Part shown: positions 17,477 through 20,988 of the stretch, piece after piece | Layout of the letters: every line of letters begins with the position of its first letter | Position numbering within the stretch: the first letter of the stretch is position 1 | NCBI RefSeq assembly: GCF_900143675.1 | Contig: NZ_FRFC01000004.1 | Location: forward strand, 124,001 to 188,000 | From: Candidatus Nitrosotalea sinensis | GTDB taxonomy: Archaea; Thermoproteota; Nitrososphaeria; Nitrososphaerales; Nitrosopumilaceae | Reading direction: 5' to 3' | DNA: 64,000 nucleotides | Made by a program: the position numbers and the translations under genes | The notes under the pieces: generated by a model | The model's input: the letters and a program-made list of their open reading frames with translations, nothing else | Told to the model about the DNA's origin: nothing | Database searches by the model: none

Positions 17477-17626
17477 ATGTCAAAAACAATATCAATGCAT
17501 TGTATAAAGTGTAAAAAAAATATAGATTCTAATGATTTATACAAAATTGTAATGTATATTGTTGACCAAAAATTTACAGATCATCATTATGAACATGTAG
17601 AATGTCCTGGTAAATTCACAATCTAA
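17477..17626 (+). CDS. Zinc-finger-like microprotein, 49 aa
   Basis: A small gene with a CxxC near the N-terminus (MHCIKCKKN) and an HH...H...C group near the end (FTDHHYEHVECPG), so one metal site is likely. A TATA-like CCTTATAG (17444-17451) lies about 26 nt before the ATG, supporting real, leaderless expression. It overlaps the stop of the convergent cyclase by 4 nt. The function is unknown. Confidence 0.65.
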   Translation: MSKTISMHCIKCKKNIDSNDLYKIVMYIVDQKFTDHHYEHVECPGKFTI

Positions 17627-18414
17627 GTATGCATTGCGTAAACTCTGTACGCTTTACCTGTCTTCTTGTCTTGATATGACCAAACATGATCATTCCAGCT
17701 CATAAGTTCAAAGAGATTCTTTAGTGAAGGATGAAGTTTTTCATAAATGTCTTCTCCAATTAAAATTTGATTGGGTTTTGCAAGTGCAGTTATTTTTGCT
17801 GCGATACTTACAGCTGGACCTAATATGTCTACATGTGATTTTATTTGGTCAGAGCCATATCGAACAATTACATTTTCTCCAAAATCCATGCCTATCTTTA
17901 CACGAAGTTCTGGATAATCATACTCACTCAGTATTGGATTTATTCCTCTTTCTATGACATCAATCATGGTTCGTGCACAATTTACCGCACTATCTGAGAC
18001 CACAAGAGGACTTTCTTCTGCAATGAAATATCCAATTACTGCATCTCCAACATATTTGAGAACATAACCGCCATGATGACGTATCACTGATCGCATCTCT
18101 TGTGAAAATGAACTGATTATAATTCCGAGTTTCTCTGGTGGTAAAAGTAATGCCATGTCAGTAGAGCCTACAAGATCTACAAACATCACAAGCATGTGGA
18201 TTTTTTGAGCAACGTGCTTTCGAAGAAATGAATCTGATTCATCTACTGAATAATCATACTCGTATCCTTTTTTGAGCGAACTCCATACTCGTTTCTGAGT
18301 TTCTTTTATGAGAGTTTCAGTGTCAAGAATGCCAGATTTACCGCCTCCTAACATCATGTCAACTATGTTCATAGTAGTCTTTTCATCTGGCTTGGATTCT
18401 TTCTCATTGCTCAT
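17623..18414 (-). CDS. Class III adenylate/guanylate cyclase-like protein
   Basis: A 263-aa soluble protein. About 70 N-terminal residues precede a class III catalytic domain. The metal-binding aspartates are present in MFVDLVGST (D80) and KYVGDAVIGYF (D124), with GMDFGENVIVRYG following. The transition-state pair, normally Asn and Arg in VNxAAR, is Ser203 and Lys207 here (VSIAAK). Activity may be weak, altered or lost. The neighbouring gene at 18421 is a zinc microprotein 6 nt upstream on the same strand, so they are an operon. Confidence 0.9.
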   Translation of the reverse strand: MSNEKESKPDEKTTMNIVDMMLGGGKSGILDTETLIKETQKRVWSSLKKGYEYDYSVDESDSFLRKHVAQKIHMLVMFVDLVGSTDMALLLPPEKLGIIISSFSQEMRSVIRHHGGYVLKYVGDAVIGYFIAEESPLVVSDSAVNCARTMIDVIERGINPILSEYDYPELRVKIGMDFGENVIVRYGSDQIKSHVDILGPAVSIAAKITALAKPNQILIGEDIYEKLHPSLKNLFELMSWNDHVWSYQDKKTGKAYRVYAMHT

Positions 18415-18636: not shown

Positions 18637-19473
18637 GTGCAGATACCATCAAGCAATCCAGAACCTTTTGTAAAATTGTTGAGCGAAAAGGCAGAACTTG
18701 TTCGTACCTTATTTCTTGAACACGTTACCGCTTTGACAAAAAAGGCATCCATAAAAGTGATGCTCGGAGATGGAACAGTTACAGATCAAGAGTCATTTGA
18801 TCCGGCTTTGATACGACAATTCTTTGCTAATCTTCTAAAAAGTGTACCTGATTGGGACAACCAAGGGGTATCATCTACAGTAGAAAAAGATCTTAGACGC
18901 ATATTTATTAAATTTGAGATAAAAGAAGGAAACTATCTTCTTTCAGCACACATGTCATTGCAGTACCATGCGTTGTTATTTTACAAACTTGATCACAAGG
19001 TAATAGAAATACAAAAGGAACTAGCAGATATTTCAGACATGATATCTAATTTACAGGTCAAGGTAGGACCTGAAAATGACAAGATAATACAGGAAAAATT
19101 ACAAAAAGAAGGATATGCCGACCTTGATGAACAAAAACTATTCGAAGTTTTGTTCAATCGAGAAGACATGACTCAGGAGATTGTAAAATCAATAGAGGTC
19201 TCACACCAAGAACATACCCGGCTCGTATCAAACAGAGACAGACTATTCAAAGAGTTAGATAATATGTTAATTGAGATATATCACACCACGCCAGTCTTAA
19301 TTGATGAAAATAAAATGATCGCTGCCGAAGAAGGATGTCTGTGCAATTTCAATTTGGAATATCTAAAAAACAACATACGTGAGGGAAATATCAATCTGAC
19401 AAGAATTGCAGAGCAAACAAAGACAAATTTACTTTCACATTTGGATAATATCATAAAAATTTTAAAAAATTAA
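18637..19473 (+). CDS. Hypothetical coiled-coil protein, 278 aa
   Basis: A soluble, mostly helical protein with a long coiled-coil region around residues 115-215 (KVIEIQKELADISDMISNL). The N-terminal third is mixed alpha/beta; CLCNF near residue 235 adds two cysteines. The start is GTG, placed about 26 nt after a TATA-like ATTTTATG; there is no nearby ATG in frame. It is divergent from the cyclase operon with only 69 bp between starts. The family is not recognised. Confidence 0.8.
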   Translation: MQIPSSNPEPFVKLLSEKAELVRTLFLEHVTALTKKASIKVMLGDGTVTDQESFDPALIRQFFANLLKSVPDWDNQGVSSTVEKDLRRIFIKFEIKEGNYLLSAHMSLQYHALLFYKLDHKVIEIQKELADISDMISNLQVKVGPENDKIIQEKLQKEGYADLDEQKLFEVLFNREDMTQEIVKSIEVSHQEHTRLVSNRDRLFKELDNMLIEIYHTTPVLIDENKMIAAEEGCLCNFNLEYLKNNIREGNINLTRIAEQTKTNLLSHLDNIIKILKN

Positions 19474-19513
19474 AAAATTGTTTATATTAAAGTGATTTTA
19501 CAAAATAATACAA

Positions 19514-19600
19514 TTAGTCAAGAGGTCAAGGCCATTTTTCATGGTGTCACAGTTTGGGGAGTAGACACCACAGAAAGACGTTATGACACTCTTGACTTAG
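19514..19600 (+). ncRNA. Probable structured small RNA of unknown class
   Basis: An 85-nt element with a 13-bp basal helix: 19516-19528 pairs with 19584-19597, all Watson-Crick with one bulged A at 19588. Inside, TGGTGTC (19542-19548) pairs with GACACCA (19564-19570). The two strands between the helices are 13 nt each, like the pocket of an H/ACA guide RNA, but no clear K-turn or ACA end is seen. A TATA-like TTTATATTAAAG (19481-19492) lies 25 nt before the helix, and T-rich DNA follows. There is no coding frame. Confidence 0.65.
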
Positions 19601-19779
19601 ATCTCTAATTTTCTCAGAATATTATTTAGGCCTTTCTTGATCCCTTAAAACTTTGGTAAATAATGCATTAATTTCATATTTTCTCATTAGAATATCAATA
19701 AATTCTATAAATTATAGATTGTTTTTTGGGTTCAACACAATCAATAACCCAAATATACTAAGACGGGATGAAAAATCTG

Positions 19780-20988
19780 ATGAATGTAACTTTTGATGAC
19801 ATACTAAAATCACAAAAAATTCAACGCAATGTTATCCGTAGGACTCCTCTTGAGAGTTCACACTCATTTAGCATGATGACAGGCTCAAAGATATATCTAA
19901 AATCAGAATGTCTACAAAAAACTGGCTCGTTTAAGGTACGTGGAGCTTATGCAAAGATTGCGAGTTTGTCAAAAGAAGAAAAACGAAAAGGGGTCATTAC
20001 AGCTTCTGCAGGAAATCATGCTCAAGGAGTTGCATACGCATCAGCCTTGGAAAAAATTTCATGTACAATTGTAATGCCTGTCAATGCTTCTCCTGCCAAA
20101 GTCTCTGCCACAAGATCCTATGGAGCAAATGTGATATTGGAAGGATCAGTCTATGACGAATCTTCAGCAAAAGCAGCAGAACTTGCACAAAAGACTGGTG
20201 CTACAATAGTTCACGCATTTGATGATGAGACAGTAATTGCGGCTCAAGGAGTAATAGGACTTGAAATCATGGAAGACCTTCCAGATGTTGATGAAATTTA
20301 TGTTCCTATTGGTGGCGGAGGTCTTGCAGCAGGAATTTTAAAAGCAGTCAAGACCAAAAAACCCAAGGTAAAGGTAGTAGGAGTACAATCTACTGGTTTT
20401 CCAGCAATGAAAAAATCATTTGATGCAGGAAGATTGCAATCAGTATCAGGACACAGAACTATTGCAGATGGAATATCAGTAAAAACACCTGGTCAATCCA
20501 CATTTAAGATAATTAATGAACTAATCGACGATATTGTGCTAGTTGACGATTCTACAATCGTAAAAGCAATGTTTCTTTTGATGGAAAGATCAAAGATGGT
20601 CGTAGAACCCGCAGGAGCAGTTGCGTTAGCATATCTTCTTGACAAAAAACCTGCAAAGGGAAAGAAGGTGGTTCCAATCCTATCTGGAGGAAACATTGAC
20701 ATGTACTTGTTAGGACAAATTGTATCAAAAGGCCTCACAGAGATGGGCAGAATGGTAAAGATATTTGTCCTCCTGACTGACAAACCAGGGGCATTAAGAG
20801 AAGTAGTAGACCAAATATCTTCACTTAGCGTAAACATTGTCGATGTAATTCATGATAGACTTAGCTCAAGTATACCTGCAGGAACAGCAGGAGTAACATT
20901 GAGCCTTGAAACTCAAGATCAAAAACATGCGGAACAATTGATTGGTTTTCTTAAAAAGAAAAACATCCAATTCAAGGTAGTCACATAG
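19780..20988 (+). CDS. ilvA: Threonine ammonia-lyase with C-terminal ACT domain
   Basis: A 402-aa PLP enzyme that deaminates threonine to 2-oxobutanoate, the first step to isoleucine. The PLP lysine is in KTGSFKVRGAYAK; the phosphate-binding loop is PIGGGGLAAGI. The last 75 residues are an ACT domain (KIFVLLTDKPGALREVVDQ), probably an allosteric site. The ATG at 19780 is preferred over 19768 because the AAATATAC box is about 27 nt upstream. It fits with the ThrRS and threonine synthase elsewhere in the window. Confidence 0.94.
   Translation: MNVTFDDILKSQKIQRNVIRRTPLESSHSFSMMTGSKIYLKSECLQKTGSFKVRGAYAKIASLSKEEKRKGVITASAGNHAQGVAYASALEKISCTIVMPVNASPAKVSATRSYGANVILEGSVYDESSAKAAELAQKTGATIVHAFDDETVIAAQGVIGLEIMEDLPDVDEIYVPIGGGGLAAGILKAVKTKKPKVKVVGVQSTGFPAMKKSFDAGRLQSVSGHRTIADGISVKTPGQSTFKIINELIDDIVLVDDSTIVKAMFLLMERSKMVVEPAGAVALAYLLDKKPAKGKKVVPILSGGNIDMYLLGQIVSKGLTEMGRMVKIFVLLTDKPGALREVVDQISSLSVNIVDVIHDRLSSSIPAGTAGVTLSLETQDQKHAEQLIGFLKKKNIQFKVVT

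Follow-up and report, generated by a model that had tools for sequence, protein, structure and literature searches.

The window analysed here is a stretch of 64,000 nucleotides from Candidatus Nitrosotalea sinensis (assembly GCF_900143675.1, contig NZ_FRFC01000004.1, positions 124,001 to 188,000), and the locus under study lies between two genes on its plus strand. The first is a conserved, uncharacterised ORF of 278 amino acids (18637-19473), which had no Pfam match and only sub-threshold matches in NCBIfam, one of them a weak match to Sul12a; a search of 28 genomes from the family and the order found homologs in 22, most of them adjacent to ilvA. The second encodes an ilvA-type threonine ammonia-lyase (19768-20988; PF00291, E 1.7e-86) and has its own conserved TATA-like box, CCAAATATACT. 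Relative to the RNA gene described below, the ORF is a convergent and ilvA a divergent neighbor, and neither is part of it. A protein with an adenylate/guanylate cyclase catalytic domain (PF00211) is encoded on the minus strand at 17623-18414, and its gene is kept near the 278-aa ORF in many relatives.

The intergenic interval holds a stable hairpin. An earlier note on this DNA had proposed a plus-strand RNA with two helices, and both were recovered when 19514-19600 was folded (-33.5 kcal/mol, z = -5.7, equalled by none of 200 shuffles); the minus strand of this copy folds better still (-35.7, z = -7.0). Read as minus-strand RNA, the hairpin spans 19597 to 19516, with an outer helix formed by the 5' arm AGUCAAGAG (19589-19597) and the 3' arm CUCUUGACU (19516-19524), and an inner helix formed by GGUGUC (19564-19569) and GACACC (19543-19548). 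On the minus strand, the portion of the small RNA that is both structured and conserved covers 19514-19604. No family in Rfam 15 scored above its gathering threshold at the hairpin, and a search of 12 diverse member loci with E up to 1 gave only two sub-threshold matches to plant miRNAs, both outside the element. The absence of a coding frame, also claimed earlier, was borne out, since changes in interior length among relatives rule out a conserved frame. A pseudoknot between loop and bulge (AACU/AGUU) could form in many of the copies but not in every one, and is not claimed here.

The structure is supported by covariation. With the Nitrosotalea sequences in register, the ends of the outer stem are nearly invariant, ACUCCCCA is invariant and the interior varies freely. 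In an alignment of 75 rows fitted to the model (A3), which includes six antisense-strand matches, compensatory changes were observed in 11 of the 13 outer pairs, affecting both arms, with 70 doubly changed cells against 19 expected (0/500 shuffles). The signal was abolished when the pairing partner was slid, and the pair counts were similar once the antisense rows had been dropped. In the unfitted MAFFT alignment (A1), both the covariation score and the doubly changed cells were reached in 0/500 shuffles, while the number of doubly changed pairs was matched in 52/500. On the minus strand, both arms of the inner helix likewise show G-U pairs and compensatory changes. The symmetric pocket with two 13-nt strands that the earlier note had drawn between the helices is not conserved; within the genus, the interior strands range from 4 to 16 nt on the 5' side and from 10 to 16 nt on the 3' side.

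The same alignments bear on the strand. When the Nitrosotalea alignment is read as minus-strand RNA, the non-Watson-Crick pairs consist of 51 G-U versus 4 A-C, and the counts are reversed (4 versus 51) when it is read as plus-strand RNA. The 42 non-redundant copies likewise contain 62 G-U and 10 A-C pairs on the minus-strand reading, and RNAalifold scored the Nitrosotalea alignment at -16.4 on the minus and -5.6 on the plus strand. On these results the plus-strand RNA proposed originally was rejected. We consider the identification of the conserved RNA with the minus strand to be strongly supported rather than proven, because the G-U bias could partly reflect strand-biased mutation and because the antisense strand folds at least as well in 13 of 69 copies. 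Two roles tied to the neighboring genes were also rejected: an ilvA leader or riboswitch, because the RNA is directed away from ilvA and that gene has a TATA-like box of its own, and a terminator between the neighbors, because copies differ in orientation relative to the adjacent genes.

With the intergenic interval as query against 101 genomes, the element was identified in at least 26 genomes of the same genus, one of them being that of Ca. Nitrosotalea devanaterra. A covariance model built from 26 sequences (R1) found a single strong copy in the genome of origin (77 bits), and matched genera g1 and g6, where several genomes carry two to four copies. It missed syntenic versions in other genera, which were located via the neighboring uncharacterised gene. 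A second model (R2), restricted to the outer helix and trained on sequences representing several genera, also matched the window copy and placed the element in 59 of 250 genomes of the family, corresponding to 11 of 22 genera; there was no match in the other 191, among them most of the largest genus, g11. Among the R2 matches in g11, the promoter signature was seen in G257 only. That copy (L206) has the full promoter; its neighbors are an integrase-like gene and a TrmB-like regulator, and its genus is otherwise mostly without the element. The weak model matches in G245 and G167 lack the promoter signature and were rejected, and the assignment of the g19 copy (L127) rests on synteny.

Genomes outside the R2 training set (G102, G059, G104, G272, G275, G276, G270 and G277) also carry the element at the ilvA locus, and non-training genomes from g3, g12, g17 and g22 have it between the uncharacterised ORF and ilvA, a position common to Nitrosotalea and about ten further genera of its family. 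Elsewhere, the element is found between aroB (DHQS, PF01959) and a DNA methylase gene (PF01555), next to a secretion-type ATPase-like gene, and at a few further sites. The same promoter spacing recurs in at least four contexts. Judged by these comparisons, the element is probably an independent gene, because well-matched copies in other contexts keep the promoter spacing; a core promoter at a fixed distance, a conserved structure and no reading frame are the features found. A weak copy, L074, lacks a clear TATA-GATC and may have decayed. The copies mostly number one to four per genome and occupy orthologous places. Apart from the integrase-like gene beside L206, features of a mobile or phage-borne RNA were not found, and the 20 pattern matches on viral contigs all occurred without the promoter; these, and the single weak matches without promoter in two genomes outside the family (G436 and G318), were taken as chance and rejected as members.

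The promoter signals flank the hairpin at fixed distances. On the minus strand, the TATA box CTAAATAAT lies at 19621-19629 with an A-rich BRE upstream of it (~19630-19638). All 42 non-redundant copies have a TATA-like box (typically GAAAAGGCTAAATA) whose start lies about 30 nt ahead of the hairpin, as compared to 0-2 copies in other 8-nt bins, and the core CTAAATAAT recurs in identical form upstream of the tRNA-Val gene in the window. The expected start site, some 25 nt from where the box begins, carries AGATCT (19599-19604, minus strand). GATC was found between the TATA box and the hairpin in 40 of the 42 copies (shuffled mean 4.1, maximum 11) and on the other side of the hairpin in only one. 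AGATCT is likely to be both a site for regulator binding or methylation and the 5' end of the RNA, and the GATC element suggests a switchable promoter. On the plus strand, AAAAAATTGTTTATAT (19472-19487, TATA at 19481-19487) resembles a convergent antisense promoter, its TATA-like box beginning 35 nt before the helix base. An opposite-strand box of this kind, typically AAAAATTGTTTATATC, is situated 30-37 nt from the other base of the hairpin in 35 of the 42 copies, against 0-7 in other bins. The promoter at an exact distance reported earlier is this convergent antisense box on the plus strand; the sense TATA at 19629-19621 had been missed. The suggestion of a new thaumarchaeal ncRNA is supported by the conserved covarying structure, the absence from Rfam and the promoter signals at fixed distance.

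Inside the hairpin, a CUCCCC-type stretch is the sole sequence that is kept everywhere. In the window it occupies the apical loop (19556-19561, minus strand), and ACTCCCCA is invariant in the 26 Nitrosotalea sequences. It was recovered in 69 of 69 copies, with a mean unpaired probability of 0.86. Nitrosotalea copies carry it in the apical loop, those of several other genera in the 5' internal loop. Because it is kept everywhere and predicted to be unpaired, the stretch points to a contact site. The complementary seed TGGGGAGTW occurred 12 versus 7, 13 versus 13, 18 versus 15 and 14 versus 7 times relative to the reversed pattern in four genomes, mostly inside ORFs for this single seed. A simple target of this one seed is not supported, there being no clear excess over the reversed control; no target can therefore be named, and protein binding appears as likely as pairing.

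Comparative sequence analysis thus shows a family of structured elements with a favored strand, fixed promoter signals and an open C-rich patch. We think it probable that the locus is a minus-strand small-RNA gene with a GATC-linked promoter, a hairpin, and the open CUCCCC patch as its active part. TBP and TFB would bind the BRE and TATA box at 19638-19621, and transcription would begin near the conserved GATC (~19604). A hairpin of roughly 90 nt would be made first, and the gene probably runs past it to T-tracts at ~19479-19464, where the RNA would end; the complement of AAAAAATTGTTTATAT may be such a terminating T-tract. The GATC would probably make the promoter switchable, by a regulator or by DNA methylation. 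The RNA would keep CUCCCC open in the loop and would use this patch, and not the variable interior, to pair with GGGGAG-type sites or to bind a protein. From the convergent core promoter on the opposite strand, a complementary RNA would be made, which could titrate the minus-strand RNA or block it. Our best reading is accordingly that of a promoter-regulated, trans-acting small RNA that may act via CUCCCC, perhaps with an antisense partner.

A stronger version of the last idea is that both convergent promoters are active and yield two complementary hairpin RNAs from the same ~80 bp, whose loops (CUCCCC/GGGGAG) meet, so that the pair itself is the regulatory device. The 35 copies with an opposite-strand TATA at a fixed distance include paralogs in unrelated contexts, the outer stem is conserved beyond the needs of pairing, and the two RNAs would have almost identical starts, AGUCAAGG. 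However, several genera have a weak or displaced opposite-strand element, the stop codon of the g19 ORF lies only ~10 nt from the hairpin, the G-U bias favors one strand only, and the A-rich DNA could instead be kept as the T-tract terminator of the minus RNA. We therefore regard a pair of this kind as possible but rather doubtful. Equally tentative is the wider picture of a new archaeal regulatory module, in which one hairpin, flanked at fixed distances by two convergent core promoters of which the sense one is gated at GATC by a regulator or by DNA methylation, would produce complementary hairpin RNAs with C-rich and G-rich loops that meet, and would have spread to several chromosomal places in the ammonia-oxidising archaea.

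The element might also act as DNA, either as an inverted-repeat operator or as an intergenic palindrome resembling a terminator, and yield no functional RNA. The palindromic stem GTCAAGG/CCTTGAC is indeed strongly conserved and is flanked by two TATA boxes and GATC, but compensatory changes, a strand-specific G-U bias, an interior of variable length and a conserved unpaired loop are signatures of RNA, which makes this explanation very unlikely. An atypical guide RNA, which the earlier note had also considered, deserves hardly any credence, whether of the H/ACA or of the C/D type: the window copy does have two stacked helices split by internal loops, but the interior strands are free in sequence and length, the 3' strand is nearly absent in L126 and L127, and the trinucleotide at the end of the stem in the 26 Nitrosotalea sequences is ACU (22), GCU (3) or ACC (1), never the ACA whose absence had already been remarked upon. 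The looser ANA (as AAA) follows the stem in 13 of the 26, as expected of A-rich DNA, and the variable strands leave no conserved bipartite pocket. Matches to the C box RUGAUGA were found in 0/26 and to the D box CUGA in 5/26 of these sequences, a match to SNORD41 was far below the gathering score, and no conserved K-turn or K-loop was seen by eye in alignments A1 and A2. Guide RNAs of both types were rejected on the features tested.

The small-RNA gene favored here can be compared to several known systems. Some trans-acting bacterial small RNAs, such as those of Staphylococcus, have C-rich loops of the UCCC type. The hairpin RNA resembles them in that a stable hairpin with its own promoter presents a short, single-stranded C-rich stretch where contact probably takes place, but it is archaeal, no target pairing was found here and no RNA-chaperone partner is known. 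RNA-IN/RNA-OUT of IS10 and CopA/CopT, which control plasmid copy number, are antisense hairpin pairs, and one of the IS10 promoters contains GATC. The thaumarchaeal element shares with them a hairpin RNA with convergent overlapping promoters, here predicted, and with IS10 the GATC promoter; unlike them, it has no adjoining transposase or replication gene, most copies are at a stable chromosomal place across species, and the antisense transcript is a prediction. Archaeal H/ACA guide RNAs likewise have two helices with internal loops, whereas the hairpin RNA has no ACA, conserved pocket or Rfam match. Tan1, an abundant ncRNA of marine Euryarchaeota, is also an archaeal structured RNA of unknown function recognised by comparing homologs, but it is 229 nt long and from another phylum (PMC5069720).

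In soils and in the sea, ammonia-oxidising archaea are major nitrifiers, and our search of the literature found no paper describing regulatory small RNAs in them. Nor did it find a report of this hairpin RNA family or its transcript, within a coverage that excludes many journals. The elements thus apparently form an undescribed small-RNA gene family, present in about half of this archaeal family's genera, and a structured RNA gene family with such a strict promoter code provides a concrete handle. Expression, regulator and target are directly testable in Ca. Nitrosotalea devanaterra, whose complete genome contains the element.

The joint pattern of TATA, GATC and GTCARGG matched almost only hairpin loci in the 250 genomes. 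A further TATA-GATC-GTCAAGG match (G022:C45:17130-17167) may be one more copy. At the aroB locus (L197-L204, L075 and L076), the convergent neighbor of the RNA copies is an N6/N4 DNA methylase gene, which is of note given the GATC in the promoter. Finally, an ORF starting with MEFQMKDPVLIIGLGGAGCKL, tubulin/FtsZ-like by eye, follows the promoter CTAAATATTTTAGATCCGATCTTGGATC in L271 and L272 (G035 and G006); this promoter is conserved in the two species and possibly reflects the same GATC-type control as in the RNA promoters.
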